Below, in pieces: positions 23,864 through 50,320 of a stretch of DNA of 64,000 bases. The notes beneath the pieces are model-generated. The model was not told the origin of the DNA, searched no databases, and saw only the letters and a list, made by a program, of their open reading frames with translations. The position numbers and the translations under genes were made by a program. Numbering within the stretch: position 1 is the stretch's first letter; each line of letters opens with the position of its first letter. The DNA comes from Roseburia sp. (lineage in GTDB: Bacteria; Bacillota; Clostridia; Lachnospirales; Lachnospiraceae). The DNA lies in assembly GCA_017549185.1 (NCBI GenBank), contig JAFYVJ010000021.1, positions 124,001 through 188,000 on the forward strand. The letters run 5' to 3'.

Positions 23864-24904
23864 TTAAGAAAGTAGTTTGTCGATTGGAGACAAGTGCTTT
23901 CTGAGATTTAGTTTTGTAAAAATAAATATGCGCAATAAATCAAATAATGAGCAGGCGAGATAAATGGCAAAGGAGGCAATTAAGACACCTGTAATTAATA
24001 AAGGAGTGTTAAATTTTAATAATGGCACTGCAATATCAATGATGTAGTAATTCCAAATGAGTGGGTTTACATGTATGATGTAAACACTTAGTGCAGCCGG
24101 TGCCAGCAGACCGATTATTTTTTTGAGTATGGTATTATTTATAGTTATGTTTGCAAAAATAAGTAGTAACGATACCGCTGCTAAAAAAATAGTAGGCGAA
24201 GCATAGTCAATTAAATGTGGAATACCCTGCATTTTATAAAGCCATGTCAGTAAAATAGAAGCACCGTAGAGTAGGATGCATATTTTTTTTGAAAGAGTAA
24301 CCTGGTATTTTTTAATATAACCGCCTACAAGGTAAAGCATGCAAAGCCAGATGACACTGAATCCGCTGTTTACTGAAAACGTATCTCGTTGCATGACCGT
24401 TGGAATGGTTATAAAAAATATAAAAAATGTAATCAGAACAAAACGTAAATAACGTTGCTCTAATTGTTGTATCGCCAGATTTAAAATAGGTATAAATACA
24501 GACATTCCAAAATAACAGGTTAAATACCAGTATTGGGTATTCATAATCGGAAAGCAGGCGTTTAACCAGTTCTGTGTGGTAAGGTATTCTGGGTGCTTTA
24601 AGGTAAAGAAAAGTGTAAGACCTAACGTATAGAACACGATTTGAATCCACAGCAAAGCAAGTCTAGAGAGCTTGAATTTGGAGTAACAACCTACGTAACC
24701 ACTGATTAGAGCATAACAGTTAACCGCACAGTAAGCAGCGATTTCTAAAAACCAGGCTGCCTGATAAGAAGTAGTGCCGGGAGTTAACTGTACTAAGATA
24801 CCTCCCTGACCTAAGGCATGTAGAATTACAACCATAAACATGGAGAGCATACGAAGAAAATCAATTCCATAATTTCTTGTAGAAATAGTAGTATTTGTAG
24901 ACAT
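23864..24904 (-). CDS. Membrane acyltransferase, acyltransferase family 3
   Basis: 346 residues from the ATG whose complement is at 24902-24904, chosen because aaaggaac lies 5 bases before it; a longer frame from 24955 has no such site. Family 3 acyltransferases have about ten membrane segments and a catalytic histidine near the first, here in NYGIDFLRMLSMFMVVILHA with the conserved R and H. They O-acetylate or O-acylate wall or surface polysaccharides, peptidoglycan or lipids. It is the only minus-strand gene and is divergent from the glycan-modification operon, which suggests a common theme. Its substrate is unknown. Confidence 0.9.
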   Translation of the reverse strand: MSTNTTISTRNYGIDFLRMLSMFMVVILHALGQGGILVQLTPGTTSYQAAWFLEIAAYCAVNCYALISGYVGCYSKFKLSRLALLWIQIVFYTLGLTLFFTLKHPEYLTTQNWLNACFPIMNTQYWYLTCYFGMSVFIPILNLAIQQLEQRYLRFVLITFFIFFITIPTVMQRDTFSVNSGFSVIWLCMLYLVGGYIKKYQVTLSKKICILLYGASILLTWLYKMQGIPHLIDYASPTIFLAAVSLLLIFANITINNTILKKIIGLLAPAALSVYIIHVNPLIWNYYIIDIAVPLLKFNTPLLITGVLIASFAIYLACSLFDLLRIFIFTKLNLRKHLSPIDKLLS

Positions 24905-24937
24905 AGAAGTTCCTTTCGATTTATTAATTAAGTACAT

Positions 24938-24988
24938 ATAACTATTCCGTGACAATGGAGTCTTGCGAATGGTGCATGGAATAGTTAT
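24938..24988. repeat. Palindromic intergenic repeat, copy R3 (short)
   Basis: ATAACTATTCC (24938-24948) is the reverse complement of GGAATAGTTAT (24978-24988), and the interior has TTGCGAATGGTGC as in the R1 repeat read on the minus strand. It lies in the leader of the minus-strand acyltransferase. Shorter and more diverged than R1 and R2. Confidence 0.6.
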
Positions 24989-25070: not shown

Positions 25071-25138
25071 GGTAATATTGAGAGAACTATCGCCATTTGT
25101 GTATGACAGGTGGTGGGAGATATAGGAGAAGTACATTT

Positions 25139-26635
25139 ATGAGAGCAATAAAACCGGAATGGAAAACCGCGGTATTGGCGACTTGGATTATAGGCTTGTT
25201 TGCACATGCATATCGGTTTTTTAACTTTTTGCCTACTGGCGATACAATGCATAGTTTTTTTGGAACCGGTGCGACATATAGATCAGGAAGATGGTTTTTG
25301 GATTGGGCAAGTCAGTTATCTACGAATTATGAATTGACGTGGATGAATGCAGCATTGTCTATGATATATATTTGTGTGGCGGTAGTCATGCTAATTGAAC
25401 TTCTAGAGATAAAAAATCAGAGTGCTATTATTTTAACGGCAGGTTTAGTAGTGACATTTCCGGCAGTTACATCTACTTTTGCATATATGTTTACAGCAGA
25501 TGGTTATATGATGGCGTTTATGTTGGCGGTAGCAGGTATTTATTTGACAGAAAAGTACAAATGGGGAGTGATACCGGGAATTCTTTGTGTATGTCTTAGT
25601 ATGTCTACCTATCAGGCGTATTTGAGCGTATCGTTGGTGCTTGTGGCAATTCTTTGTATAAAAAAAGTTTTGTTAGATGATTTGAATTTTATTCAGGCGT
25701 TACAGGCAGAGTATACACAGGCGATTACACTAGTCGGTGGTGCAGTATTGAATAAGGTCCTAACGAATCTGATAAATAAGCATATCGGTATGGCTTTAAC
25801 TTCTTATCAGGGAATTAATGATGTGCATATGCTTACCATAGAGGATAATTTAAAAGCGATAGGGGCATCCTGGGATGGTTTTAAATTGTTTTTTGAGATT
25901 GGGGAATGGGCAGGAAAGAATAAGTATTCCCAGCTACATCAATTGTTTTTTATATTATTACTTGGATTCACAGTATATTTTGTAATAAAGAAAAAGGTGT
26001 ACAAGCGCCCGGTGGCGTTATTGTGTGTGGTGGCAGCATATTTGTGTATGCCAATGCTGGTATATGTGATTCGTTTCGTATCTGTAAAGGTGGTATATCA
26101 TGCCCTTATGGTAATGAGTCTGAGTTTGTTGTATGTGTATGTTTTGATGTTGATAGAGCATTTTGATGAGGATAACAAGATAGAAAAGGTAATGAGATAC
26201 ATTACCATGGCAGTAATGTGTGGTATCTGCTATATCAATATTTTGAATGCGAATTATGCATATTATCAGATGAATCTAAGTTATGAAAAGTCCTATGCGA
26301 TTGCAATGGATGTGTTAAGCAGAGTGGAAGAAATAGAAGAGTTTGATGGAACACAGAAAATTGCAGTTTGTGGTTTTTATGATGCAAGTACAGGAATTAT
26401 TAAGCCGAGCAAGCCGGAATTAGTAGGAGTCGGAAATGGGACTGTTTTGGCGGGCCAGGAGCATTACCTTGCGATGTGGGAATATTGTATGGGACGTGTG
26501 TATGCAGGAGCAACGCCGGAGGAGACATATGAGATTTGTCAAACAGATGAGTATCAGGATATGAATGTGTATCCGTATGCCGGCTGTGTGAAATATGTGG
26601 ATGGTGTAGTGGTTGTAAAACTTTCGGAAGAATAG
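25139..26635 (+). CDS. GtrII-like membrane glucosyltransferase domain protein
   Basis: 498 residues from ATG 25139 (ataggagaag at 25121-25130). It has about ten hydrophobic segments and a soluble C-terminal part of about 120 residues. The pattern GRWFLDWASQLSTNYELTWM at about residues 54-73 and TFPAVTSTFAYMFTADGYMM fit the Glucos_trans_II (GtrII) family of polytopic GT-C-like transferases. Such proteins move a sugar from a polyprenol phosphate carrier to a surface polymer outside the membrane. The next gene codes for the GT2 that would load that carrier. It is probably the first gene of the operon. Confidence 0.8.
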   Translation: MRAIKPEWKTAVLATWIIGLFAHAYRFFNFLPTGDTMHSFFGTGATYRSGRWFLDWASQLSTNYELTWMNAALSMIYICVAVVMLIELLEIKNQSAIILTAGLVVTFPAVTSTFAYMFTADGYMMAFMLAVAGIYLTEKYKWGVIPGILCVCLSMSTYQAYLSVSLVLVAILCIKKVLLDDLNFIQALQAEYTQAITLVGGAVLNKVLTNLINKHIGMALTSYQGINDVHMLTIEDNLKAIGASWDGFKLFFEIGEWAGKNKYSQLHQLFFILLLGFTVYFVIKKKVYKRPVALLCVVAAYLCMPMLVYVIRFVSVKVVYHALMVMSLSLLYVYVLMLIEHFDEDNKIEKVMRYITMAVMCGICYINILNANYAYYQMNLSYEKSYAIAMDVLSRVEEIEEFDGTQKIAVCGFYDASTGIIKPSKPELVGVGNGTVLAGQEHYLAMWEYCMGRVYAGATPEETYEICQTDEYQDMNVYPYAGCVKYVDGVVVVKLSEE

Positions 26636-26652
26636 AGTCAGGGGTTATTAAG

Positions 26653-27591
26653 ATGAAATTATCACTAGTGGTGCCTTGTTATAACGAGGCAGAAAATGTT
26701 CGTTTGTTTACGGAGAAAGTCAGAGAGCATTTGGCTGACTTAGATTATGAGATTATATTTGTTAATGATGGTAGTAAAGATGATACCATCAAAGAATTGA
26801 AAAATATTAAAAATGAGAAAAAAGAGAATATCACTATTATAAATTTTTCACGTAATTTTGGGAAAGAGGCTGGAATTTACGCGGGATTTCAGCATGCAAA
26901 AGGAGATTATGTGACGGTAATTGATGCTGATTTGCAACAACCATTAGAAGTGGCACGCGAGATGTACGATTTCTTAGAAGGGCATGAAGAATATGATGCA
27001 GTTGCGGCATATCAGGATGTTCGTAAAGAAGGACGTATCATTACGGCTTTTAAAGATGCATTTTATAAAATTATAAATAAGCTTTGTGATATTGAGTTAT
27101 ATGCAAATGCCAGTGATTTTCGCTGTATGAGAAGAACTGTGGTAGAGGCGATTCTAAGTATGTCAGAGTATCATCGTTTTTCGAAAGGTATTTTTGCATG
27201 GGTGGGCTTTGATACTTATTATCGTCCATACGAAGTACAGGAGAGAAATGCAGGAACATCAAGCTGGTCATTTTGGAGTCTGTTAAAATATGCGATGGAA
27301 GGTGTGATATCTTTTTCTACCAAACCATTAAAAGTCGTGATTTCAGCAGGGGTTTTTACTTCTGTAATGGCAATTTTGTATATGATTGTGGTGATTGTTC
27401 AGAAGTTGGTCTTTGGCATTGAAATACCGGGTTATCCGACCATTATCGTTTTGATTTTGTTGATAGGTGGTATTCAGCTTACTGTTATGGGAATTATAGG
27501 AGAGTATCTGGCAAAGGTACATATTGAGGTGAAAGGCAGACCAATTTATATTGCGAAAGAAGTCTTGCACAGTACGAGAGAAGAAGGATAG
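26653..27591 (+). CDS. GT2 family polyprenol-phosphate glycosyltransferase (GtrB/DPM1-like)
   Basis: 312 residues. The N-terminal GT-A fold begins SLVVPCYNEAENV, has FVNDGSKDDT and the metal-binding motif DADLQQP (about residue 97). Two C-terminal membrane segments (about 230-250 and 263-285) and the end EYLAKVHIEVKGRPIYI are typical of bactoprenol glucosyltransferases. It would move a sugar from a nucleotide donor to undecaprenyl phosphate on the inner face. It is 17 bp after the GtrII-like gene and 3 bp before the acyltransferase, so it is cotranscribed. Confidence 0.92.
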   Translation: MKLSLVVPCYNEAENVRLFTEKVREHLADLDYEIIFVNDGSKDDTIKELKNIKNEKKENITIINFSRNFGKEAGIYAGFQHAKGDYVTVIDADLQQPLEVAREMYDFLEGHEEYDAVAAYQDVRKEGRIITAFKDAFYKIINKLCDIELYANASDFRCMRRTVVEAILSMSEYHRFSKGIFAWVGFDTYYRPYEVQERNAGTSSWSFWSLLKYAMEGVISFSTKPLKVVISAGVFTSVMAILYMIVVIVQKLVFGIEIPGYPTIIVLILLIGGIQLTVMGIIGEYLAKVHIEVKGRPIYIAKEVLHSTREEG

Positions 27592-27594
27592 TAC

Positions 27595-28605
27595 ATGGGT
27601 GAAAAAAAAGAATTTATTGCTGTTGATATCTGTAAGTTGTTCTGGGCACTTGTGGTAGTTGCAGTTCATTTACTTCCAATGGCGGATGTGTGGCCGGAAA
27701 GTTTATTTTGGTTTAATCAGATTTTCGGCAGAATAGCAGTGCCATATTATTTTGTGGCTTCCGGTTATTTTTTGGCAGGAAAATTGAATGATAAGAGAGC
27801 GGTAAGACAACAGGTTTTTCATTTGACTAGTTTATATGGAGTCTACACATTGCTGCACTTGAATTTGATTATAAAAGATTTTAAGATGGCAGGAACCGAT
27901 ATATATAATATTGTTACAGAACTATTGTTTCTTGGAAGCTATGTGCATCTGTGGTATTTGCTTGCATTAATTTTGGGAATTGTCATTTTATACTTTATAG
28001 TGCAGAGATTTAAAGAGGATACTGGGAAAATAGTGCTTATTGCAGTAGTTATATATGTATTTGGTACATTGGGGAATGCATATAGTCCATTGATGGATAA
28101 GGTTCCTGTATATAATGTGATGATGAACGCATACTTGGATTTGTTTAAAACGACACGGAATGGTATTTTTATGGGAGTTCCATTTTTGACGATGGGATAT
28201 ATTATGAAAAAGCGTGAGATTTTGGGTAATGGAAAGCCATACTTGGTGTTACTGGCATTGTTATTAATGACAGTGGAAGTTTATACAGTAAAACATGTCC
28301 TTGGTTTGGAGAGTGCATCTATGTATTTTATACTGCCATTGGTAGTGTATGCATGTTATAGCTGGTCATTATCTATTCGCATACATATAAAATACAAAGA
28401 ATTCGGTGTAGTGTGCAGAAAAGTGTCTTTTTTGGTGTATGCATTGCATATGTTTGTACATAAAAATCTTGGGCATTATGTATATTACAGGGTAAATAGT
28501 TTAGGGTATTACATAATTATTGTGGGTAGTACAATGATTGCTGCATTGGTAATTATCTGGTTGTCAAAATATAAATATTTCAAGTGGTTAAGATATTTAT
28601 ATTAA
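27595..28605 (+). CDS. Membrane acyltransferase, acyltransferase family 3
   Basis: 336 residues, hydrophobic, about ten membrane segments. The opening EFIAVDICKLFWALVVVAVHLL has the histidine and adjacent charged residues found in this family, although the usual arginine after the first Asp (DxxR) reads K. PYYFVASGYFL is the second typical block. The gene is in a run with the ligase and carrier protein, so it may transfer the carrier-bound acyl or aminoacyl group to the glycan. This is inference from context; family 3 proteins can also use acyl-CoA donors. Spacing to the ligase gene is 21 bp. Confidence 0.85.
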   Translation: MGEKKEFIAVDICKLFWALVVVAVHLLPMADVWPESLFWFNQIFGRIAVPYYFVASGYFLAGKLNDKRAVRQQVFHLTSLYGVYTLLHLNLIIKDFKMAGTDIYNIVTELLFLGSYVHLWYLLALILGIVILYFIVQRFKEDTGKIVLIAVVIYVFGTLGNAYSPLMDKVPVYNVMMNAYLDLFKTTRNGIFMGVPFLTMGYIMKKREILGNGKPYLVLLALLLMTVEVYTVKHVLGLESASMYFILPLVVYACYSWSLSIRIHIKYKEFGVVCRKVSFLVYALHMFVHKNLGHYVYYRVNSLGYYIIIVGSTMIAALVIIWLSKYKYFKWLRYLY

Positions 28606-28626
28606 ACGAAGAGGAGAAATAGACGT

Positions 28627-30135
28627 ATGTATAACAATATTTTGGATTTATTAGAAAACTCATGCAAGAACTATCCGGAAAAAATAGCATTTGGTGATGT
28701 AGAACGAGATATCACTTTTGGTGAATTGGTAGCATCGGCGAAATCAGTAGGAACCTTACTGGCAGATAAAATCAGTATTGCAGAACCGGTTGCATTTTAT
28801 ATGGATAAGAGTGTTAACGCAGTATGTGGTATGTTTGGTGCTGTTTATGCGGGCGGTTTTTATTCTTTTTTAGATGTGAAGCAACCACAGGCGAGAACAG
28901 AAAGTGTACTTGGAATTTTAGAGCCGAAAGTTATTTTTACAGATGAGGAAAATTATGAGAGAATTTCATCTTATCATACTGATGCCAAGATTCTTTTGTT
29001 GGACGAATATTTAAATGGGGTAGTTGATGAGGAAAAACTTCTTATTGTTCGTCGCAATTTTCAGGATGTGAATCCATTATATGTTAATTTTACGAGCGGA
29101 AGTACAGGAGTGCCAAAAGGTGTAGTGGTAAGCCACCGTTCAGTGATTGAATTTATCAGTTATTTTGTAGAGATATTTCAAATCAAATCATATGATATTA
29201 TTGCAAATCAGGCACCGTTTGATTTTGATGTGTCAGTAAAAGATATTTACAGTGGGTTGATGACCGGTGCTAAGGTGCAGTTGATTCCAAAGAAATACTT
29301 TAGTGCGCCAACATTATTAATGGATTATTTGGCAGACAAAGAAGTGACTACGTTAATCTGGGCAGTAAGTGCAATGTGTTTCGTGTCAGTTATGAAAGGA
29401 TTCGAATATCGTTTGCCGGATAAGATTCACACGGTTATGTTTAGTGGTGAAGTATTACCGATTAAGCATTATAAAATTTGGAAAAAACATTTGCCAAATG
29501 CAAAATATGTAAATCTCTATGGACCGACAGAGATTACCTGTAATTGTACTTATTATGTGCTAGACAGAGAATTTGAAGATGCAGATGTCATTCCGATGGG
29601 AAAAGCGTTCCCGAATGAAAAGGTATTCCTGTTAGATGAAAATGATGAACTGGTGACAGAGCAGGGGGTGCAGGGAGAGATTTGTGTCGGAGGAACTGCA
29701 CTCGCATTGGGCTATTACAAAGATAGAGAAAAAACAGAACAGGCATTTGTGCAGAATCCGTTGAATAAAGCATATAACGAGATGATTTATCGTACAGGTG
29801 ACATTGGAAGATATGATGAGAATGGCGATTTGATATATGTATCCAGAAAGGATTTTCAGATTAAACACTTAGGTCATCGAATTGAACTAGGGGAAATCGA
29901 AGCAGTTACTATGGCAAGAGATGGCGTTACCAGAACTTGTTGTATCTATGATAAAGAAAAGCAGAGACTGATTCTGTTCTTTACAGGTGATAGAGATAAA
30001 GTGGAATTAATGAAGGAACTTCGCACGGTATTGCCACCATTTATGCTGCCAAATTCACTAGTTCCGGTAGAAGAGATGCCACTTAACAAAAATGGTAAAA
30101 TTGATAGAAATAAATTGATGAGTGACTTTAGGTAA
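28627..30135 (+). CDS. Amino acid adenylation enzyme, DltA-like AMP-forming ligase
   Basis: 502 residues, as DltA (about 500). The ANL superfamily core motifs are in order: FTSGSTGVPKGVVVSHRS (A3, about residue 155), FDFDVSVKD (A4, with the Asp that holds the amino group of alpha-amino acids), YGPTEITCNC (A5), YRTGDIGRYDENGDLIYVSR (A7), KHLGHRIELGEIE (A8) and NKNGKIDR (A10 lysine). It activates an amino acid with ATP and would load it on a carrier protein; a candidate carrier is coded at 31608. It is not certain that D-alanine is the substrate. No dltB or dltD neighbour is present, so this is not a standard teichoic acid D-alanylation operon. Confidence 0.9.
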   Translation: MYNNILDLLENSCKNYPEKIAFGDVERDITFGELVASAKSVGTLLADKISIAEPVAFYMDKSVNAVCGMFGAVYAGGFYSFLDVKQPQARTESVLGILEPKVIFTDEENYERISSYHTDAKILLLDEYLNGVVDEEKLLIVRRNFQDVNPLYVNFTSGSTGVPKGVVVSHRSVIEFISYFVEIFQIKSYDIIANQAPFDFDVSVKDIYSGLMTGAKVQLIPKKYFSAPTLLMDYLADKEVTTLIWAVSAMCFVSVMKGFEYRLPDKIHTVMFSGEVLPIKHYKIWKKHLPNAKYVNLYGPTEITCNCTYYVLDREFEDADVIPMGKAFPNEKVFLLDENDELVTEQGVQGEICVGGTALALGYYKDREKTEQAFVQNPLNKAYNEMIYRTGDIGRYDENGDLIYVSRKDFQIKHLGHRIELGEIEAVTMARDGVTRTCCIYDKEKQRLILFFTGDRDKVELMKELRTVLPPFMLPNSLVPVEEMPLNKNGKIDRNKLMSDFR

Positions 30136-30217
30136 CAGTTCAGCCATAGACAAAATAATAGGTGAATCGTGCTTGCACGAATGAGCATATTATCTTATCT
30201 ATGGGCGAAACTGTTAT
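30133..30217. repeat. Nested inverted repeat between ligase and decarboxylase genes (R4)
   Basis: An imperfect arm of about 28 nt (30133-30160, starting TAACAGTTCAGCCATAGA) pairs with 30188-30216 (ending ACTGTTAT), and a short hairpin TCGTGC/GCACGA (30167-30180) sits in the middle. It starts at the stop codon of the ligase gene. It may be a mobile palindromic repeat or an mRNA processing signal. Confidence 0.65.
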
Positions 30218-30248
30218 ATTAAAAAAGTAAGTAAAAGCGAGAGAAATT

Positions 30249-31478
30249 ATGACAGATATCGAATTGAAGAAAATTATTAAGGAACATGGTACGCCGGCAT
30301 TTTTATTTGATACAGTGGCATTGAAGGAACGCATGAGGGCGATAAAAGAAATTGTTGGTGAGAAGGTGCATTTGTGTTATTCCATCAAGGCAAATCCATT
30401 TTTGATAGACACGATGTTAGAATGTGTGGAAAAGTTAGAAGTATGTAGTCCGGGCGAATTAGATATTTGTAAGATGCAACAGGTGCCGGGCGATAGAATT
30501 ATATATTCCGGTGTGAATAAGACACGTATTAACATTGATGATGCGATAGAATATGATTCGGGTGTGTATACGGCGGAATCTGTCTTGCAGTTAGAACTTT
30601 TAAATGAAAGTGCGATGGAGCACGGAAAAGTGATACCTGTGTTACTGCGTTTGAATGCAGGAAGCCAGTTTGGTATGTCAAAAGAAGATTTGTGTGATGT
30701 GATTGGCCGCAGAGCGGATTATGTGGGTGTGCAAATTGTGGGAATCCATTATTTTGCAGGGACTCAGCGAAAGAAACTATCAGAGCAAAAAGCAGAATTG
30801 GCGATGTTAAGAGATCTGATTGATGAACTGAAAGAAACGTATGGCTATCAGGTGGAGAAGTTAGAATATGGTCCGGGACTTCCGGTTCCTTATTTTACAA
30901 CAGAGGACTTTACAGATACATTGGCTCCGATAAAAGAGATTGCGGCAGATTTACAGGCAATAGGGGATATTGTTCATCTGACTGTGGAAATGGGAAGATT
31001 TTATGTTTCAGAGTGTGGATATTACCTGACAAAAGTAATGGACCAAAAGTCGAATAAAGGTACAAACTATGCCATTGTAGATGGTGGTATGAATCATTTA
31101 AACTATTTAGGACAGATGATGGGAATGAAGGTTCCTGTGATTAAGCATTTTTCAATGGAGCAGTCAGACAGACATAACTTAGGCGTATCGCTGGCGGAGA
31201 ATGTAAGTGGAGAAGAAGTGAATTGGAGTTTGATAGGCAGTCTTTGTACAACAGCAGATGTGATTGTGCGTCAGACTGCGTTTAAAAATTTGTGTCTGGG
31301 AGATGCATTGGTATTTTCAAATATTGGTGCCTATTCCGTGACAGAAGGAATACACTTGTTCTTAAGCAGAATAATGCCGAAGATTTTATTATATCGCGAA
31401 GAAGGTTTAGTACAGGTGGCAAGAGACTTCATGGAGACGAGTCAGTGGAATTGTATTCAGAATGGCTATGATTCATAG
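30249..31478 (+). CDS. Fold-type III PLP-dependent decarboxylase (LysA/BtrK-like)
   Basis: 409 residues. The Schiff-base lysine is Lys47 in CYSIKANPF. Other parts of the diaminopimelate/ornithine decarboxylase class 2 fold: EVCSPGELDI, GIHYFAGTQ, LEYGPGLPVPYF (altered GGGFPV motif), EMGRFYVSECGYYL (altered EPGR phosphate motif), Cys333 in GSLCTTADV, and NIGAYSVTEG. It lacks the sequence details expected of a housekeeping LysA, so another substrate is likely. A close functional precedent is BtrK of butirosin biosynthesis, which decarboxylates glutamyl-ACP. Together with the ligase and carrier genes it suggests decarboxylation of a carrier-bound amino acid. A racemase-like role cannot be excluded. 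Confidence 0.8.
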   Translation: MTDIELKKIIKEHGTPAFLFDTVALKERMRAIKEIVGEKVHLCYSIKANPFLIDTMLECVEKLEVCSPGELDICKMQQVPGDRIIYSGVNKTRINIDDAIEYDSGVYTAESVLQLELLNESAMEHGKVIPVLLRLNAGSQFGMSKEDLCDVIGRRADYVGVQIVGIHYFAGTQRKKLSEQKAELAMLRDLIDELKETYGYQVEKLEYGPGLPVPYFTTEDFTDTLAPIKEIAADLQAIGDIVHLTVEMGRFYVSECGYYLTKVMDQKSNKGTNYAIVDGGMNHLNYLGQMMGMKVPVIKHFSMEQSDRHNLGVSLAENVSGEEVNWSLIGSLCTTADVIVRQTAFKNLCLGDALVFSNIGAYSVTEGIHLFLSRIMPKILLYREEGLVQVARDFMETSQWNCIQNGYDS

Positions 31479-31607
31479 CGCTACGGAACAAGAGTTGTTT
31501 GTTGCTGAAGGTATGGTAATAAATCGTAGAATAAATGGTAGAATACTTTTCGGTTTTATGATACACTGAATGCAAGTGTTTAGATAATAAAGGAGGCTGT
31601 TTTTATA

Positions 31608-31832
31608 ATGGAAAGAATTATTGAATTATTACAGGAAATTAAAGAAGATATTGATTACGAAAACGAGGGAAGTTTGATTGATGATGAATTGTTGGATTCC
31701 TTTGATATTTTACAGTTAATCAGTGCATTGGATGATGAATTTGATATATCTATTCCAGCGGCTATGATTATTCCAGAGAATTTTAACAGTGTAGAAGCAT
31801 TATGGAACATGGTTCAGGAATTGATGGATTAA
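31608..31832 (+). CDS. Stand-alone acyl/peptidyl carrier protein
   Basis: 74 residues, acidic, helical. Ser31 in the motif LLDSFDILQLISALDDEFDI is the site for the 4'-phosphopantetheine arm. The length and the DSFD form resemble DltC and other discrete carriers. ATG 31608 follows aaaggaggctg (31590-31600). It overlaps the next glycosyltransferase gene by one base, so the two are coupled. It is the only carrier in the locus and the natural partner of the ligase at 28627. A 129-bp gap separates it from the decarboxylase gene. Confidence 0.92.
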   Translation: MERIIELLQEIKEDIDYENEGSLIDDELLDSFDILQLISALDDEFDISIPAAMIIPENFNSVEALWNMVQELMD

Positions 31833-32794
31833 TGATGAAGAAAAAATTGGTGAGCATTACCATTCCGTGCTATAACGAAGAGGCGGCACTTCAGGTTATA
31901 TATCCTGCGATTGTGGAAGCGATGGAGCCGTTAGAAGAGAAGTATGAATTTGAATTGTTGTTAGTTAACGATGGTTCAAAGGACGGAACACTTAAGCAAA
32001 TGAAAGCGTTGGCAGAACAGGATTCCAGAGTGAAATACTTTTCTTTTTCCAGAAATTTTGGCAAAGAAGCAGCGATTTATGCAGGACTTAGCAATGCAAA
32101 GGGCGATTATGTAGTTATGATGGATGCAGATATGCAGGATCCACCAGCACTATTGCCGGAGATGATAACGAAGTTAGAGACCGGAGAATGGGATTGTGTA
32201 GCTACTAGGCGTGTTACCCGAACCGGAGAAGGTGCGATTCGTTCTTTTGGAGCACGAATGTTTTATAAAATTATTCGCAAAATGACGAATATCAATATTG
32301 CTGATGGTGCCAGAGATTATCAGATGATGACCAGACAGATGGTGGATAGTGTGTTGGCATTGACGGAATATAACCGTTTTTCGAAAGGGATTTTTGAATG
32401 GGTAGGCTATCGTAAGACCTGGCTGGAGTTTGAGAATGTAGAACGTGCAGCCGGCGAGACAAAATGGAGTTTTTGGAAGCTGGTATTATATTCGCTCGAA
32501 GGAATTATCAATTTTTCGAGTTTCCCTTTGACAGTGTCATCTTATTTGGGATTCATCATGACATTGATATCTTTCGTTGCGATTATTTTCATTATAGTAA
32601 GAAAATTAATGTTTGGTGATCCTGTGGATGGATGGGCATCTACGGTATGTATTGTTACGTTTGTTGGCGGAATTCAACTGTTTTGTATGGGTATTATGGG
32701 ACAGTATATGGCGAAAATGTATTCTGAGGTGAAGAACAGACCTAGATATATTATTCAGGAGACAAACGGTGAAGATGTTATTTATAATAAGTAA
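31832..32794 (+). CDS. GT2 family polyprenol-phosphate glycosyltransferase (second copy)
   Basis: 320 residues from ATG 31832, which shares one base with the carrier stop; ATG 31835 is an alternative. It is similar in design to the GT2 at 26653: SITIPCYNEEAAL, LVNDGSKDGT, FSRNFGKEAAIYAGL, DADMQDP, two C-terminal membrane segments, and GQYMAKMYSEVKNRPRYI at the end. It would load a second sugar onto polyprenol phosphate. Direct coupling to the carrier gene suggests that the sugar it handles is linked to the amino-acid modification, for example as the acceptor. It is the last gene before a terminator. Confidence 0.92.
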   Translation: MMKKKLVSITIPCYNEEAALQVIYPAIVEAMEPLEEKYEFELLLVNDGSKDGTLKQMKALAEQDSRVKYFSFSRNFGKEAAIYAGLSNAKGDYVVMMDADMQDPPALLPEMITKLETGEWDCVATRRVTRTGEGAIRSFGARMFYKIIRKMTNINIADGARDYQMMTRQMVDSVLALTEYNRFSKGIFEWVGYRKTWLEFENVERAAGETKWSFWKLVLYSLEGIINFSSFPLTVSSYLGFIMTLISFVAIIFIIVRKLMFGDPVDGWASTVCIVTFVGGIQLFCMGIMGQYMAKMYSEVKNRPRYIIQETNGEDVIYNK

Positions 32795-32846: not shown

Positions 32847-32896
32847 GTATAAATATGATGAAAAATATGCTTTGAAGAATGATAGAGGAAAGAAAT

Positions 32897-33868
32897 ATGA
32901 AAACCTATATTGTAAAACATAAGGACATCAATAGTAGGATGAAGTCGCGTTCAGGAGGTGTTTTTGCTGCGGTTTCAGATAAGGTGCTAGACGCTGGTGG
33001 AGTGGTGTATGGCTGTGCCTTGGATGAACAGTTTAATGCGTACCATCGCAGGGCAGTAACGAAGGAGGAGCGTGACTTGTTTCGTGGTTCTAAATATGTA
33101 CAGAGTGATATGAAAGATGCCATGAAAGAGGCTATTGTAGATTTGAAAGAGGGCAGATTTGTGCTTTTTTCCGGAACACCATGTCAGGTGGCAGGAATGA
33201 AAGCAGTGTGTCCTCCTGGAAAAGAAGAGAATTTGCTTACTATAGATATCGTCTGCCATGGAGTACCAAGTCCGGTGGTTTGGAACGCTTATAAATCCTA
33301 TATGGAGAAAAAATATCATGGCAGGATTACAGGGGTGGATTTTCGAAATAAGAGAAACCATGGCTGGTGGGAGCACATTGAGTCAGTAAAAATTCATGGG
33401 TTGGAAGTAGATAGTCAGATATACAAGAATCTTTTTTATGAGCATAATATTTTAAGGGAATGCTGCTATGAATGCCCATACAAGAGTACAGAACGTGTAG
33501 GCGATATCTCGATTGCAGATGCATGGGGAATTGCGCAGGCGGCACCGGATTTTGATGATAATCATGGAGTTTCGCTAGTCTTATGTAGCACAGATAAGGG
33601 ACTGAAATGGTTAGAGCAGGGATTAAAAGACTGCGATTATAGAGAATGTGATTTGAAGGATTACATGCAGGAACCTCTTATTCGAAGTTTTGCAAAACCT
33701 GCTAATTACGAACAGTTCTGGGAAGAATATTTTTCAAAAGATTTTGGAACGGTGATAAGGGAACGCTACGAAGATTCTGTTAAGACACATATGAAGTGGC
33801 GGATAAAAAGAATGGTGAAAGCGGTGGTGCCGCAGACATTGATTAATAGATTAAGAGGGAGAGTATGA
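32897..33868 (+). CDS. FrhB/FdhB-like (coenzyme F420 hydrogenase beta subunit C-terminal domain) protein
   Basis: 323 residues from ATG 32897 (gaggaaag at 32884-32891). The family pattern is clear: SRSGGVFAAVSDKVL, GCALDEQF, FRGSKYVQSD, VLFSGTPCQVAGMKAV, TIDIVCHGVPSPVVW, and the cysteines ECCYECPYKSTERVGDISIADAWG. These proteins bind iron-sulfur and flavin and pass electrons; in Firmicutes they are often found in polysaccharide loci. In many relatives an N-terminal ferredoxin domain is fused to it. Here that part is missing and a ferredoxin gene overlaps the 3' end by four bases. Confidence 0.85.
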   Translation: MKTYIVKHKDINSRMKSRSGGVFAAVSDKVLDAGGVVYGCALDEQFNAYHRRAVTKEERDLFRGSKYVQSDMKDAMKEAIVDLKEGRFVLFSGTPCQVAGMKAVCPPGKEENLLTIDIVCHGVPSPVVWNAYKSYMEKKYHGRITGVDFRNKRNHGWWEHIESVKIHGLEVDSQIYKNLFYEHNILRECCYECPYKSTERVGDISIADAWGIAQAAPDFDDNHGVSLVLCSTDKGLKWLEQGLKDCDYRECDLKDYMQEPLIRSFAKPANYEQFWEEYFSKDFGTVIRERYEDSVKTHMKWRIKRMVKAVVPQTLINRLRGRV

Positions 33869-37780: not shown

Positions 37781-38488
37781 GTGAGACTTATCAAGCAGTA
37801 TCGAAATGAATGGAAATATCCCTGTACCGAACATGACTTGGCGATATTAGAAGACCGACTGGACGCGGTCTTAGACAGAGATGCCAATAGTGGTGCGACG
37901 GGGATTTATGAAATACATAGTTTGTATTTTGATGATATTTTTGACTCCTGTGCAAAGGAGAACGAGGCGGGCGTATCGGCAAGATTTAAATATCGCATCC
38001 GCTACTATGGAGATAATCCGAACTTTATGAAGCTCGAACGCAAAGAAAAGTTAAATGGCAGATGTCATAAGGATAGCTGTAGATTGACGTTAGAACAATA
38101 CAGGCAGATTATATCCGGTGAGGCAGAAGAATTGTTTTGGGAGACAGAGAATGAGTTACTCAAACAGTTTTGTGTGCATATTATGACAAAGGGATTTGCA
38201 CCGAAAGTAATCGTTGATTATGAACGTGTGGCATTCGTGGAAGAGATTACGAATATCCGTATTACGCTGGATAAGAATATCTCTGTTTCGGATGAGATAG
38301 AACATTTTTTAGATGGTGATTATCTTCGTGTGCCGATTCAGGAAAAACAACGACAGGTGTTAGAAGTGAAGTTTGATTATATCTTACCGGGGCACATCAG
38401 ACATTTGGTGACCAATAAGAATCTGGTTCAGACTTCCTTTTCGAAGTATTATTTAGGAAGAAAAAAATTACAAAGTATAGGTAGGTAA
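37781..38488 (+). CDS. VTC domain protein (polyphosphate polymerase-like)
   Basis: About 235 residues. The VTC tunnel-fold features are YRNEWKYPC (start of the domain), IYEIHSLYFDD, FKYRIRYYG, LERKEKLNGRCHKDSC, VIVDYERVAF, RITLDKNI and VLEVKFDYILP with its conserved basic and acidic residues. Eukaryotic VTC4 makes polyphosphate; bacterial members are less well known. The listed start is GTG 37781, but a very strong ribosome binding site (AGGAGGTGA, 37776-37784) covers that codon, while ATC at 37790 has the proper distance. The true start is therefore doubtful by a few codons. The next gene follows after 2 bp. Confidence 0.85.
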   Translation: MRLIKQYRNEWKYPCTEHDLAILEDRLDAVLDRDANSGATGIYEIHSLYFDDIFDSCAKENEAGVSARFKYRIRYYGDNPNFMKLERKEKLNGRCHKDSCRLTLEQYRQIISGEAEELFWETENELLKQFCVHIMTKGFAPKVIVDYERVAFVEEITNIRITLDKNISVSDEIEHFLDGDYLRVPIQEKQRQVLEVKFDYILPGHIRHLVTNKNLVQTSFSKYYLGRKKLQSIGR

Positions 38489-38490
38489 AA

Positions 38491-39159
38491 ATGGGAGCAT
38501 TAACAAGAACAATAGAGAATATTATCAATTCTTATGAGAATCCACAGCTTGGCACGGCAGTGATATTATCCGTACTTTTGATGGCATTGGTGTTGTGTAT
38601 TTATGAATTTATTGTATACCGTGTTGTTTCGCACAGAGCATTTTATAATAAATCATTTAATATCTGCATCGCAGTATTGCCATTATTTATTGCTACGATT
38701 ATTTTATGCTTACAGTCTAATATTGTCATTACATTAGGTACGATTGGTGCATTGGCGATTATTCGATTCAGAACAGCAATCAAAGATCCGGTGGATATGT
38801 TGTATTTGTTGTGGTCTGTACATATTGGTATTACCTGTGGTTGTCAGTTGTATGAAGTGTCAGTTTTGACATCTCTTTTGGTAACAGTCGTGTTATTGAT
38901 TATGGAGAATTGGGGAATCGGAAAGAAACCGTTTATATTGGTGTTTCATTGCGCAACGGAACAGGAAAATGCGGTATTGGAAACACTGAAAACTGTTACA
39001 AAGAGTTATCGCGTTAAGAGTCGTAACTACACATCAAAAGGCATGAATTGTGTGGTAGAATTATCGGTGAAAAAGACAGAAGAACTTGCGAACAAGTTGA
39101 CAGAAATCGGTGTAGAGAAGTTTTCTGTGATTGAGTACGATAGCGATGATGTGTTATAG
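38491..39159 (+). CDS. DUF4956 membrane protein
   Basis: 222 residues with four membrane segments (about 22-47, 60-78, 85-103 and 120-140) and a soluble C-terminal part of about 80 residues with a ferredoxin-like pattern (VVELSVKKTEELANKL). The diagnostic sequence is ITLGTIGALAIIRFRTAIKD and PVDMLYLLWSVHIG. DUF4956 genes regularly lie beside VTC and CotH genes, as here; function unknown, possibly transport or anchoring for the VTC product. ATG 38491 is 2 bp from the VTC stop. Confidence 0.92.
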   Translation: MGALTRTIENIINSYENPQLGTAVILSVLLMALVLCIYEFIVYRVVSHRAFYNKSFNICIAVLPLFIATIILCLQSNIVITLGTIGALAIIRFRTAIKDPVDMLYLLWSVHIGITCGCQLYEVSVLTSLLVTVVLLIMENWGIGKKPFILVFHCATEQENAVLETLKTVTKSYRVKSRNYTSKGMNCVVELSVKKTEELANKLTEIGVEKFSVIEYDSDDVL

Positions 39160-39174
39160 GATGGAAATGAGAGC

Positions 39175-40887
39175 ATGAGAAAAAATACAGGATTATTGAT
39201 TCTGTGTATATCTGTTCTGGCATTTCTAACATTAATGGATTCCGGTATGTTATCCACTTCTTATGCGGAATGTATTTCTGATGAGAAGGTTTGTCAGGAA
39301 GTGATGGGAACACGTGTGGAATATGAGGACTTGTTGACAAATTTATACTTTGATGAGCAGGATTTGTTATATGAATATCATACAAAAACATTCTATTATT
39401 CATTAGTGGAAGGTAGCTCTAGTGCATATAATCCGCAGATAAAAGCACAAAGTGATACGGAGTCCGTAAAAGTTCTATTTTTAGGAGAGATAACAGGGGC
39501 AGGAATCGAGCAGAATCAGACGATTCAGATACTTGCTTATTCAGATGTATACTATTATATATATAACTTAAAATGTACCACACTGCCTCTAATGAGTATC
39601 AATGTGCAGGAAGATATTTTGAGGGAAGAAATACCGATGGAGATGACCCTGTTTGATAATCAAAAGGGAGCTGCGAATCGTGTGACGAATTCGACCGGTA
39701 CGATAAAGGTGCGAGGAGCATCTTCTAGTCGATTATTAAAAACTTCTTATAAAATGTCTCTTACAATGGAATCGTTAGGAGAAAATACCAGACCGAATCA
39801 CATATCACTGCTTGGCATGCGACAGGATGAGGATTGGATTTTGTATGCACCGTTTAATGATCAGGAAAAAATACGTAATGTATTTAATACAAATCTGTGG
39901 ACGGAAACCTGTGGTACGCATAATAGCGAGGGTATACAGACGGGGATAGAATATAAATATTTAGAATTGTTTATTAATGGCGATTATATGGGGTTATACG
40001 CGCTTGGATATCCAATTGATGGGAAATTAATGGGCGTTAATGCAGCAGAAGGTGAGACATTATATAAAAAAGTAGGATGGGGGAGTGAGACTACTTTTGA
40101 GCCAGGGTATAGTAGTACGGATGGAGCTGTGATTAATGGATTTGAAGTGAAAACGGTTGATGAAATGAAGCCGGACAGTATATATGAGAAGTGGGATACG
40201 CTTTTGTCTTATTATAAGCAGTTTTATGAATACAGATATGACAATGAAAAACTGCTGGAAATGATAGATATTGATAATGCGATTGATACCTACCTGTTTT
40301 TGGGGTTGATACAAGGACATGATAATACCAGAGGTTTCGAGGTACGAAATATGTATTTGTATATGTATAATAAGGCAGGTACGTTAAGTATATTATATGC
40401 TCCGTGGGATATGGATCTGACGTGGGGAAACTTTTTCTCGGAAGACTGGTATGCGAATTATGTGCAGCAGTATCGTCTGACACCGCAGGATAATCTGGTG
40501 ATGAGGGCCGGACCATTAAACCAGTTGATTGTGAATGAAGCGGATGGCGTTAGAGAACAGATTGTTAGAAGATATAGGGAACTAAGAGAAAATGCTTGGT
40601 CAGATGAATCTATCAAAGAATTGTTAGAGAATTACGAGGCTGATATCTATGGTTCCGGTGCATTTCGAAGAGAATTGGTACGATGGCCGGAAGGGACGGC
40701 GAATCATCCGGATGAAAAATTAAATGTTTTTAAGAAATATGTAGCAGAACGTTTTGCGGTATTGGATGCGTATTATGCGGATTTTGAAAGAAACATTAAA
40801 GTCGGGAATGACTATACGTTTTCAGTGACGACAGAAGGATGTGAAGATACGAAACTGTATCAGATTATGAAAAAATATTCAAATTAA
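39175..40887 (+). CDS. CotH family (spore coat kinase-like) secreted protein
   Basis: 570 residues with an N-terminal membrane anchor or signal (LLILCISVLAFLTLMDSGML). The CotH fold is recognisable from about residue 175: KVRGASSSRLLKTSYKMSL, SLLGMRQDEDWILYAPFNDQ, KIRNVFNTNLW, EYKYLELFINGDYMGLYALG, YLFLGLIQGHDNTRGFEVRN and LYAPWDMDLTWGN, in which the Asp of WDMD corresponds to the catalytic metal-binding site of CotH kinases. B. subtilis CotH phosphorylates spore coat proteins; extracytoplasmic members in other bacteria act on surface proteins. Here it directly precedes a giant secreted protein, a possible target. Confidence 0.9.
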   Translation: MRKNTGLLILCISVLAFLTLMDSGMLSTSYAECISDEKVCQEVMGTRVEYEDLLTNLYFDEQDLLYEYHTKTFYYSLVEGSSSAYNPQIKAQSDTESVKVLFLGEITGAGIEQNQTIQILAYSDVYYYIYNLKCTTLPLMSINVQEDILREEIPMEMTLFDNQKGAANRVTNSTGTIKVRGASSSRLLKTSYKMSLTMESLGENTRPNHISLLGMRQDEDWILYAPFNDQEKIRNVFNTNLWTETCGTHNSEGIQTGIEYKYLELFINGDYMGLYALGYPIDGKLMGVNAAEGETLYKKVGWGSETTFEPGYSSTDGAVINGFEVKTVDEMKPDSIYEKWDTLLSYYKQFYEYRYDNEKLLEMIDIDNAIDTYLFLGLIQGHDNTRGFEVRNMYLYMYNKAGTLSILYAPWDMDLTWGNFFSEDWYANYVQQYRLTPQDNLVMRAGPLNQLIVNEADGVREQIVRRYRELRENAWSDESIKELLENYEADIYGSGAFRRELVRWPEGTANHPDEKLNVFKKYVAERFAVLDAYYADFERNIKVGNDYTFSVTTEGCEDTKLYQIMKKYSN

Positions 40888-41076: not shown

Positions 41077-44000
41077 ATGAACAAGTATTTCAAGCACACA
41101 AAGAAGTTACTGTTCTTAGTAGCAACCATGGTTATGATGTTAGCGACAACATTGGTTGTTCTCGGAGCAGTACCATCCTCAGAAGCTGCAGCGAAGTATA
41201 GTCCATTGACTATCTTAAAAGTAGGTACACATACTTTTGATAGCAAGAAGGATCAGTACAAGTACGATGCGTTCGGTAATAAGACCATTGGTACAGCAAA
41301 GCCTGTAATTTATACAAATGGTTATACCGCAGCAGAAGATGACTGGATGGGCAACCAGCCACAGTTTGAGGTGGATTTAAACGGCACAGATGGTTTCGAA
41401 ATGGTAGAATTAGATAATTTTATCAAATTAGAAGTTAGTGCACGTGTTGGATACGACACAAACGCAGATGGTAAAGTTGATGCATACACAAACGGCTTAT
41501 ACAATGTTAAGTCAAGTAATGAAAGTGTTGCAACAGTTATTCAGGGTACAGAGCCAAATTGGGATAATGAAGGTAATGAGTATGAATCTCAGTATATTAT
41601 TATCACAGCTGGCAAGAAGACAGGTACAGCTACTATCAAATTGACAGAAGCTAATCCTGAAAACCCAAAGAAACCAAAAACAGCAACTGTAAAAGTTACA
41701 GTTAAGAAATTGGTTGATGATATCGGATTCGATGCTGATGTAGTGAAAGCAGATGAGAACGATGAATTATATACAGAAGTGGGTGTAAAAGGTAAAGTTA
41801 CTTTAGGAACAACACCTACTGTAGATGCATCTAAGAAGAATATTAAGTATGTTCTTGATGCAACAGCTAAAAAGTACATTTCTGTAAATGCTAAAGGTGT
41901 AATTACTGGTACAAAGAGCACTGCTGATTTAGAAGGCGGTTATGTAACTGTTCGTGTAGTTGCACAGGATATGCAGTATAATTACTATGATAGTAAATGG
42001 CAGGTTAAAAAAGCTACATGGGGAATTAACGAGACGATTAAGGTTTATGTTGCTGACCCAGCAGTTAAGAGTGCTAAGATTCTTAACGTAGCTTTTGCAA
42101 AAGATACAACAGAAGCAAATTATAAAGATGGAAAAGCTGCTCAGGCTTATGCAGCTATCCCAATGGTAACAAACACATCTAGTGATGCACATACCTTCAA
42201 ATTACAGGTAGCTGCATACTCAGGTGCAAAATGGAGTGGAGCAGAGAAAGTAAACGCTGTTAGATTTACAACAAGTAATGCGAAAGTTGCTACAGTTGAT
42301 AAGAACGGTGTAATCACAGCAAATGCAAATGGTAGTGCAACTATCACAGTTGTGCCTGCTGATGGTGTTGCTTTATCTGGTAAAGAAGCTCTTAAAGTAA
42401 CTGTAAAAGTAACAACAGATGTTGAGAAGATTGAAACAGCTAATACAGATGTTGAGACATTTGCAGGTAAAGTATATACAATTAAAGCAAACGTAAATGC
42501 AGGTGTTTCTAATGCAAAAGCAAAAGGCTTGGCATATGAAATTTCAAGTGCTATTCCGGCAGGTTGGACAGGGTCAAAGGATGAAGCTGATGCGTTTAAA
42601 GCCCATGTATTAGCAGTAAGCAAAGAGGCAAATGTTGCAAAAGGTAAAATCCGTAGTGATAAAGAAGGTAAAGTAGTAGTTAGAGTTTACTTAAAAGATG
42701 CTGCAGTTGCAGCTGCATATCCAGGTATCGAGAAGAACATAACAATCAACTTTGTTGATCCAATCAAGACTATTACAGCTACAGTACCTGTATATCAGGA
42801 TATTTACAAAGATCCTAAAAATGAGATTAAATTTGACCATACTCCTATAAAGGATGCTGCAACAACAACATTATATGTTGACAGAAATAGTTTTGACTAT
42901 ACAGACAATTGGGAAATGGTAACTGAGACTGTTAATGATACTTGTGTAATCAAAACAACAGTAGCTAAGCAGTTTACAGGTGCTGCAAACCTTGATGATT
43001 TACTTGTGCCAGGTAAAGAAAAACTGAGCGTTACATCAAGCAACGAGAACGTTGTTAAAGTACTTGGTAAAGTAGAAGGTGGTTTTGAAGTTCAGGCTGT
43101 AGGTAAAGGTACTGCAAAAGTTACAGTTGCAGCTACAGACGGAAGCAAGGTTAAGAAAGTTGTTACAATTAATGTTGTTCAGAAAGTAAATGAAATCAAT
43201 GTTGCAAATGCAGCAGGTGGAGAAATTTACTTAGCACCAGATAATAAAGGTGTTACAAAAACAACATTTAAAGCAACAACAAATGCAGATGCAAATAATA
43301 AGGGTGTAACATATACATTTATACCGAATTACAAGCTTATGCAGGGATTAGGTACTATCTATGGAAAACTTGAAAAGAAGACATCAAGCATTTCTCTTAC
43401 TAAAGCTGATAATGCTATCTTATTCCCAGAAGGTGGTAACACAGAACCTGTATTACTTGGAACATTGAAAGTAACTGCAAAAGATGCTCTTTATTTCGAG
43501 AAGTATGTTGCTCCTGAAGTAAACCATTTAGCACATTCGACAGAAATCAAAGTATATGCTGTTAAACAGGCTGCTTATGTTGATAAGGGATTACTTGATA
43601 CAATCGTATCAGATATGGTAAAAGCAGTTGCTGATGGTGAAGAAGGTATCACACTTTACAAAGGTGATAAACTTGATCTTGCAGCAGCACTTGAGATTCC
43701 GGCATATATTACTGATCGTGCAATCACATGGTCTGTAGGAGAAACAAACAAAGATACAGATAAGAACTACATATCAGTTGCAAATGGTGTAGTAACAGCT
43801 AAGAAAGCAACTCTTCCAGGTGACAATGTAACTGTTAACCTCGTAATGAACACATTAGATGTTGCGGGTAATATTGTTAAAGTTGGAACAGAAGTACAGG
43901 TACGTGTAATTCCTTCACAGGCAGAATTTAATAATGAATTAAATACACAGATTACTTCAGTATTGAAAGAAAATGATTACACATGGCTTGGTGCAAAACC

Positions 44001-48843: not shown

Positions 48844-49566
48844 ATGAAGTATACAGATATACATAGCCATATCTTACCTGGAGTAGATGATGGCGCTGCT
48901 GATATGGAGGAAACTTTGGAGATGCTTAAAGAGGCATATGAGCAGGGGGTCCGTACAATTTTTGCTACACCTCATTATATTCCAGGAAGAAAAAAGAAGA
49001 GTGCAGAAGAACTCCGCCAGATACATGCAGAAGTGTGTGTAGCAGCGAAGGAAAGTATGCCAGATTTAAAGATACTTCTAGGCAATGAGATATATTGCAG
49101 AGAGGGTGTTTTGAGTAGTATCACAGAGGGGAGAGCTCTTACTCTGGCAGATACTGCGTATGTATTGTTAGAATTTTCAACACATATATCCTACAAAGAA
49201 TTGTTTGGATATATTAAAGCTATATCGGGGAAACATTATAGACCGATTATCGCCCATGTAGAGCGATATGGATGTTTGTACCGGAAAGAAGAATTGATAC
49301 GCGAACTTATCGGTGCAGGAGCGTATATTCAGATGAACACAGAAAGCCTTCCGGGAGGAAGTTTTAACAGACAGGCAGCGTATTGCCGGTCACTATTGGA
49401 AAAAGGATATGTGCATTTTTTAGGAACTGACTGCCACAATATGCAGGCAAGAAAGCCGCAGATGCAGACAGACTTATTCAAAATAAAATATGCACGTTAT
49501 GAAGAACAGATAAACAAAATTATGTTGCATAATGTTGATTGTCTTTTGACAAACAAATGGATATAG
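48844..49566 (+). CDS. CpsB/CapC-type PHP-domain tyrosine phosphatase
   Basis: 240 residues, the typical length. PHP-domain metal ligands are visible in DIHSHILPGVDDGA, FATPHYIP, GNEIYC, IAHVERYG and GTDCHN. CpsB-type phosphatases remove phosphate from the tyrosine tail of the kinase coded two genes downstream. The three genes form the sequence phosphatase, modulator, kinase, as at the start of many capsule operons. ATG 48844 follows gtgtaggtaggtgtc. Confidence 0.93.
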   Translation: MKYTDIHSHILPGVDDGAADMEETLEMLKEAYEQGVRTIFATPHYIPGRKKKSAEELRQIHAEVCVAAKESMPDLKILLGNEIYCREGVLSSITEGRALTLADTAYVLLEFSTHISYKELFGYIKAISGKHYRPIIAHVERYGCLYRKEELIRELIGAGAYIQMNTESLPGGSFNRQAAYCRSLLEKGYVHFLGTDCHNMQARKPQMQTDLFKIKYARYEEQINKIMLHNVDCLLTNKWI

Positions 49567-49591
49567 TTTAAGAGAGAAAGGTTTAATTGAT

Positions 49592-50320
49592 ATGAATCCA
49601 GCAACAGATGAAATTGAAATTGATTTACTTGAGATATTTTATGTAATAAAAAGCAAGATGTTAATCATTCTTGCAAGCATGATTGCTTTCGGTGGAATCA
49701 TGTTTGGATATAGTACACTGCTTGCACAGCCGGTGTACCAGTCAACAGCAAGAATGTATATATTGTCACAATCGACCTCATTAACTTCATTGGCAGATAT
49801 TCAGGTGGGTACATCCCTGACACATGACTATAAAGTAATGATTACAAGTAGAACTGTGGTAGAGCAGGTTATTGAAAACTTGCAATTGGATTGTACTTAT
49901 GGTCAGATGCTTGAACAGATATCGATAAACAATCCAAGTAATACACGTATTATCGAGATTACGATTCAGGATAATGTTCCGGAAGATGCTAAGCTTATCG
50001 TGGATGAATTTGTAGAAGTTTCCAGAGAGAAAATTTCTTCCATCATGGTAACGGATGCTCCAAGTGTAGTGGATTATGGTAATATGCCAATCGGCCCAGT
50101 GAGTCCTAATGTTATGAAAAATACTGCAATCGGTGCAATCTTAGGTGCATTTTTAGCAATAGCAATTGTAATTGTAATCTTCCTCATGGATGATACAGTT
50201 AAGAATGCGGATGATGTAGAGAAATACTTAGGACTTAACACATTGACAAGTGTTCCTTTAAAAGAAGGAGAGAAAAAGGCTAAGAAGAAATTCTTGCCTA
50301 GAATGGGAGGTAAGCGCTAA
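49592..50320 (+). CDS. Wzz/CpsC-type chain length determinant, tyrosine kinase modulator
   Basis: 242 residues. Two membrane segments (about 26-47 and 175-200) enclose an extracellular loop. The opening EIEIDLLEIFYVIKSKMLII is the Wzz domain start; GNMPIGPVSPN is the proline-rich segment before the second helix. Its cytoplasmic tail (DTVKNADDVEKYLGLNTLTS, basic end) activates the BY-kinase in known systems. It overlaps the kinase gene by one base. In capsule operons it controls polymer length. Confidence 0.93.
   Translation: MNPATDEIEIDLLEIFYVIKSKMLIILASMIAFGGIMFGYSTLLAQPVYQSTARMYILSQSTSLTSLADIQVGTSLTHDYKVMITSRTVVEQVIENLQLDCTYGQMLEQISINNPSNTRIIEITIQDNVPEDAKLIVDEFVEVSREKISSIMVTDAPSVVDYGNMPIGPVSPNVMKNTAIGAILGAFLAIAIVIVIFLMDDTVKNADDVEKYLGLNTLTSVPLKEGEKKAKKKFLPRMGGKR

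Follow-up and report, generated by a model that had tools for sequence, protein, structure and literature searches.

The Dlt system (DltA, DltB, DltC and DltD), which D-alanylates teichoic acids, is the textbook case of surface-charge tuning in Gram-positive bacteria. Elsewhere, an adenosine monophosphate (AMP)-forming ligase and a pyridoxal phosphate (PLP)-dependent decarboxylase are found as a pair in proteobacterial exopolysaccharide loci, the exosortase-A-associated set (TIGR03098, TIGR03099), and in fluvirucin-type beta-alanyl-carrier formation, aspartate is adenylated, loaded on a carrier and decarboxylated by a PLP enzyme. In butirosin biosynthesis, the ligase is the ATP-grasp enzyme BtrJ. 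The PLP enzyme of that pathway, BtrK, converts Glu-S-BtrI to gamma-aminobutyrate (GABA)-S-BtrI (text excerpt of PMC7857480). Here, we describe a gene set in Roseburia sp. (GCA_017549185.1; 2.31-Mb assembly, 70% complete) in which a DltA-like ligase, a PLP enzyme of the LysA/BtrK lineage and a discrete carrier protein are encoded in one run with membrane glycosyltransferases. The window, meaning the whole stretch that was analyzed, comprises 64,000 nucleotides of contig JAFYVJ010000021.1 (C14:124001-188000). Judged from its genes, the set is a Dlt-type system for carrier-to-surface acylation, in split form and with an added decarboxylase-lineage enzyme, and hence a variant of the Dlt kind. We found no description of such a system in the open-access full-text literature, in searches that were partly aimed at other subjects.

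As in the Dlt system, there is an AMP-forming ligase, a free carrier with a serine attachment site, a membrane-bound O-acyltransferase (MBOAT) with two invariant histidines and a candidate SGNH/DltD-like partner, in relatives often within one operon. Unlike the Dlt system, the set includes a PLP enzyme, has a ligase pocket that is not that of DltA, and contains a ligase and an MBOAT that score far under the DltA and DltB equivalog cut-offs; its parts are divided over two loci in the Roseburia genome, and it also occurs in Treponema and Slackia loci. The likeness to butirosin biosynthesis lies in the carrier and in a PLP decarboxylase that shares its fold and lineage with BtrK, whereas the ligase of the present set is an AMP-forming adenylation enzyme and the partners are membrane acyltransferases rather than aminoglycoside enzymes. 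The pairing of an AMP-forming ligase with a PLP decarboxylase is shared with the exosortase-A-associated set, of which neither model reaches its cut-off (ligase against TIGR03098, 190.3 bits, cut-off 592.35; PLP enzyme against TIGR03099, 165.2 bits, cut-off 478.45). The likeness to the fluvirucin route, whose product is instead a polyketide starter unit, is one of described chemistry.

Conservation of the gene set

Scanning the PLP protein against genome contigs returned 45 other loci from Lachnospiraceae, Erysipelotrichaceae, Gemmiger, Slackia and Treponema, including a few near-copies (e.g. L007/L008, L017/L018 and L028/L029). Within 10 kb on either side of the PLP gene (phmmer, E ≤ 1e-4), a ligase is present in 42/45 loci and a carrier in 41/45, company that exceeds chance, and the order ligase-PLP enzyme-carrier on a single strand is kept in 33/45. 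The loci without a ligase are L004 and two that are cut by a contig end (L021 and L035). A DltB-like MBOAT occurs in 37/45 loci (36 of them resemble the cassette type more closely; 36 lie no more than 2.5 kb from the core), and an SGNH/DltD-like protein of 300-500 residues without a Pfam match occurs in 35/45 (33 within 2.5 kb). The ligase, PLP enzyme and carrier therefore form a conserved unit that usually has a DltB-like MBOAT and an SGNH protein resembling DltD as neighbors; beyond these five recurrent families, the next cluster appears in 6/45 loci.

The initial annotation had placed the ligase, the carrier and the LysA/BtrK-type PLP enzyme in one run with a GtrII-like transferase, two family 2 glycosyltransferases (GT2) and a membrane acyltransferase, with a second acyltransferase divergent. 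Profile matches confirm this content, and the ends at 25139 (ATG) and 32794 (stop) agree:

25139..26635, + strand: GtrII-like membrane glycosyltransferase (PF14264, E 1.7e-47; ATG start at 25139, in-frame TTG upstream at 25097)
26653..27591, + strand: polyprenol-phosphate GT2, PgfS/ArnC-like (PgfS model 291 bits, below the cut-off of 500)
27595..28605, + strand: Acyl_transf_3 membrane protein resembling the membrane half of VanT (VanT model 118.6 bits over 314 residues, cut-off 900)
28627..30135, + strand: AMP-forming amino-acid ligase, DltA-like adenylation enzyme (AA-adenyl-dom 318.1 bits, cut-off 317.4)
30133..30213, no strand: palindromic dispersed repeat of about 80 bp between the ligase and PLP genes (strong hairpin)
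30249..31478, + strand: fold-type III PLP enzyme of the LysA/BtrK decarboxylase lineage (lysA model 184 bits, cut-off 297.9)
31608..31832, + strand: discrete carrier protein of 74 residues with phosphopantetheine site Ser31 (DSFD) (PP-binding 21.5 bits, cut-off 20.8)
31832..32794, + strand: second polyprenol-phosphate GT2 (GT2b), PgfS/ArnC-like (open reading frame listed from 31802; last stop 32794)
32879..33868, + strand: FrhB/FdhB-C-type protein continuing the operon run (homologue in the L002 cassette, 631 bits)
23864..24955, - strand: divergent Acyl_transf_3 membrane protein, a neighborhood member outside the conserved core (profile match)

The expectation that these neighbors would be conserved together holds for the core and fails for the remainder of the run: homologues of GtrII, FrhB and the Acyl_transf_3 protein are each found in 1/45 loci and of GT2 in 6/45, and GtrII, GT2 and Acyl_transf_3 were rejected as defining partners. 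The attachment serine of the carrier is kept in 42/42 aligned carriers, and the protein scores 19.2 bits against the DltC model (cut-off 52.35).

In the nearest relative, L002, the ligase, PLP enzyme, carrier, MBOAT, two SGNH proteins, FrhB and GT2 lie in one run, and the window is therefore a split form of the set that L002 keeps together. Profile annotation of the operon genes in the window found no MBOAT among them. The Roseburia genome carries five MBOAT genes, one of which (C14:96600-98138) matches the L002 cassette MBOAT with 794 bits and is directly followed by an SGNH gene (C14:98110-99228; 401 bits to the L002 SGNH protein). The pair lies on the same contig, about 53 kb from the window operon, inside a sugar-biosynthesis cluster with genes for a nucleoside diphosphate (NDP)-hexose 2,3-dehydratase, a Gfo/Idh oxidoreductase, an NDP-sugar epimerase, a DegT aminotransferase, a PgfS-like GT2 and an ATP-grasp protein. 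On the MBOAT tree, from which fragments shorter than 400 residues were left out (all trees were made with FastTree and carry local support only), the Roseburia protein groups with that of L002 and then with 24 others, one of them from a locus without the PLP gene. Against the DltB model TIGR04091, this MBOAT (L055 6601-8139) scores 166.9 bits and the cassette MBOAT 176 bits, both below the cut-off of 375. In the SGNH-like protein, GxS and DxxH are invariant or near-invariant, and its structural model (predicted local distance difference test, pLDDT, 87.2) has four DltD chains as its best Foldseek matches. The absence of dltB and dltD, by which the initial annotation had set the locus apart from the dlt operon, is true of the operon only, since a matching pair lies elsewhere in the same genome, and most relatives have such genes beside the core. 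What stands of the proposed new carrier logic on a membrane-linked polymer is that the ligase, carrier and PLP genes are kept together in the company of genes for surface glycans and membrane acyl transfer; because the MBOAT and SGNH proteins are conserved partners and present in the Roseburia genome, the set is nearer a Dlt variant than something wholly new.

A ligase family distinct from DltA

Against the DltA equivalog, the ligase scores 268.3 bits (cut-off 559.85), and its pocket reads D199 V202 K205 A246 S273 C305 N306. Within a draw of 150 genomes of the family, the Roseburia genome included, ligases of this type (at least 294.9 bits; matches to nonribosomal peptide synthetases and DltA score at most 211.7 bits) occur in 62/149 other genomes, 28 of which have the PLP gene alongside. 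Nothing else in the Roseburia assembly is closely related to the ligase, the next matches scoring 56.7 and 40.4 bits. For comparison, 73 ligase-family loci and seven DltA-like loci were fetched, some of the stretches being cut by contig ends. The PLP gene is in the fetched stretch of 28/73 ligase loci and missing from that of 45/73, and the two groups have similar counts of carriers (26/28 vs. 41/45), MBOATs (22/28 vs. 35/45) and SGNH proteins (21/28 vs. 33/45). The frame of ligase, carrier, MBOAT and SGNH protein is thus commonly found without the PLP gene, which is the mark of one branch.

At least six of the seven pocket residues are shared by 67/71 ligases from PLP-containing loci, compared with 0/7 in six canonical DltA sequences and 1/7 in the seventh, and the ligase family is separate from these seven on the tree. 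Its assignment as a canonical DltA was rejected on equivalog score, pocket and tree position. For the choice of amino acid, the one suggestive position is that equivalent to 239, at which all 71 of these ligases have Lys or Arg; by the adenylation code, a lysine there hints at the substrate. Because this residue is the only suggestive one, we do not read the ligase substrate from the pocket. As a separate observation, one PLP-free cassette has a formyltransferase-domain gene between carrier and ligase (L148 4422-5303, - strand), a hint of other cargo chemistry.

The PLP enzyme

The structural model of the PLP enzyme (pLDDT 89.4) has BtrK as its best match in the PDB. In an alignment of the family, from which a second paralogue in L040 and the L112 fused frame were dropped, K47 and R250 are found in 73/73 sequences and C333 in 72/73 (one gap). 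The Cys-Glu of LysA is replaced by Cys-Thr in the window enzyme, with Thr or Ser in 72/73 family members, whereas the Glu is kept at this position in 16/16 LysA-type paralogues; BtrK likewise reads CT in the alignment. The enzyme thus has the catalytic Lys and Cys of fold-type III decarboxylases and lacks the Glu of LysA. In L112 (7213-10557, - strand), the PLP enzyme lies in one 1114-residue frame with surface-protein and transglutaminase-like domains, which is either an assembly error or a fusion.

Surface-glycan context

Gene clusters adjoining the cassette are shared by L027, L030 and L031. In L030 (1394-9977), genes beside the cassette encode a phosphoenolpyruvate mutase, a thiamine pyrophosphate-dependent decarboxylase, a class V aminotransferase, a nucleoside triphosphate transferase and a cytidine diphosphate (CDP)-glycerol-type phosphotransferase, which we take to be a 2-aminoethylphosphonate set. 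Clusters with the CDP-glycerol-type phosphotransferase are found in 6/45 loci (Pfam check in L002, L030 and L041). In the window itself, a CpsB/CapC phosphatase, a Wzz chain-length protein and a CpsD-like ATPase, which are capsule-type polysaccharide control genes, stand in a row at 48844-51069. Together with the clusters beside the cassette in other loci, they point to a membrane-linked surface polysaccharide as the predicted acceptor.

Proposed mechanism and alternatives

On balance, we favor by a modest degree the proposal that the cluster provides the cytoplasmic part of a surface acylation system of the Dlt type, with a predicted cargo that is an amino acid loaded by its side chain and decarboxylated on the carrier. 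The ligase would adenylate an acidic amino acid, with glutamate favored and aspartate possible, and attach it to the carrier by the carboxyl of its side chain. By analogy with BtrK, the PLP enzyme would then strip the free alpha-carboxylate on the carrier to leave a thioester that is GABA-like or beta-alanyl. The MBOAT and its SGNH partner may move the group across the membrane and ester-link it to a hydroxyl of a membrane-linked glycan, which the GT2 and GtrII proteins would build or decorate. The resulting surface group would have a free amine and no carboxylate, and cell-surface charge would be changed. Action of the PLP enzyme on a carrier-loaded amino acid is suggested only by its conserved linkage with the ligase and carrier.

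Several observations weigh against this proposal. In the raw table, the pocket is found in 25/28 PLP-containing and 9/45 PLP-free loci (Fisher p 5e-9), at seven positions that were chosen after seeing which columns separate the two groups. On the tree, the pocket arose once and PLP presence changed 7 times, and independent pairs lend no support; because the pocket is one event, we do not count the correlation as independent support. A tight coupling of ligase and PLP enzyme is further weakened by the 9/34 family-drawn pocket-bearing ligases without a PLP gene in the fetched locus: three of these genomes have the gene elsewhere (G103, G105 and G106), and the other six (G040, G085, G143, G164, G173 and G186) have only LysA-type matches of 30-60 bits. 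Conversely, four ligases from PLP-containing loci have a different pocket (L040, L112, L119 and L136), and the K205 position is also Lys in 27/45 PLP-free relatives. No MBOAT was found in the sequenced stretch of 8/45 PLP loci, several of which are short contigs. In a VIA-align comparison of the SGNH model, DltD is not at the top and ties with many other SGNH hydrolases. For the PLP enzyme, SbnH is close behind BtrK in Foldseek, a plain sequence search ties BtrK (99.4 bits) with a LysA-annotated protein (99.6 bits), and no second LysA was found in the 70% complete Roseburia assembly.

The main rival to decarboxylation on the carrier is that the PLP enzyme acts on the free amino acid ahead of loading, giving a product (GABA or beta-alanine, for instance) for subsequent loading by the ligase, with the same surface group as the result. 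We regard this route as unlikely, though it has the most in its favor among the alternatives. The six genomes that have this ligase pocket and lack a PLP gene of the family are easily explained if the product comes from elsewhere, and the relatives LysA, ODC and SbnH use free small molecules (for SbnH also in the excerpt of PMC7857480). On the other hand, the best structural match, BtrK, works on a carrier (same excerpt), and the Lys or Arg at the 239-equivalent position would suit a substrate that retains its second carboxylate.

An improbable alternative is an ordinary D-amino-acid Dlt system in which the PLP enzyme serves as a racemase of amino acids or as an alternative LysA. Public names are "alanine racemase" and "diaminopimelate decarboxylase", the amino acid used by Dlt is a D-form, and the Roseburia assembly, as noted, offers no other LysA. 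However, the enzyme scores 18.3 bits against the alanine racemase model TIGR00492 (cut-off 168), also misses the LysA equivalog TIGR01048 (184 bits against 297.9) and retains the decarboxylase Cys, and the ligase pocket differs from that of DltA. A separate, better-scoring LysA-type gene is present in 12/12 relatives checked, although these too fall just below the LysA cut-off. Because of these separate genes, the replacement of CE by CT and the structural match to BtrK, the window enzyme is probably not LysA, an identity that the initial annotation had named as a threat to its proposal; assignment as LysA or alanine racemase was rejected on these grounds and the missed cut-offs. Least probable of all, and in our view very much so, is that the ligase, PLP enzyme and carrier are dedicated to a small molecule that is soluble, with the membrane genes adjoining incidentally, as the antibiotic-pathway chemistry of BtrI and BtrK (excerpt of PMC7857480) and the MBOAT-free window operon might suggest, since MBOAT and SGNH genes accompany most PLP loci, PLP-free relatives keep the rest of the frame, and no further biosynthetic core gene recurs.

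Returning to decarboxylation on the carrier, a broader form of the proposal is more tentative, and we hold it at somewhat less than an even chance: a widespread gut-bacterial Dlt-like branch would decarboxylate its cargo on the carrier and place a free-amine acyl group (GABA-like or beta-alanyl) on surface glycans, in some cases beside phosphonate or CDP-alcohol polymer genes, within a larger ligase-carrier-MBOAT-SGNH family with other cargos. The comparison indicates that many Lachnospiraceae, along with Erysipelotrichaceae, Gemmiger, Slackia and Treponema loci, carry Dlt-like machinery that differs from DltA in both score and pocket. If the proposal is true, it would add a new surface substituent, explain genes currently named as alanine racemase or diaminopimelate decarboxylase, and give a testable handle on the charge and host-peptide resistance of gut commensals.

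Other features of the window

The start of GT2b is most likely at 31832, overlapping the stop codon of the carrier gene, rather than at 31802. The acyltransferase at 27595-28605, which is like the membrane half of the VanT serine racemase, could be an additional cargo transferase or an exporter. The palindrome at 30133-30213 has 11 matching stretches in the Roseburia genome, itself included and several of them partial, and is a dispersed repeat like a miniature inverted-repeat transposable element (MITE) or repetitive extragenic palindromic (REP) element. Downstream of the operon, a VTC-domain protein, a DUF4956 protein and a CotH kinase-like protein are encoded in a row at 37781-40887. Two very large open reading frames of 2228 and 1858 residues (41077-47763 and 52046-57622), with weak Big_2 and LED-repeat matches, are probable surface proteins.

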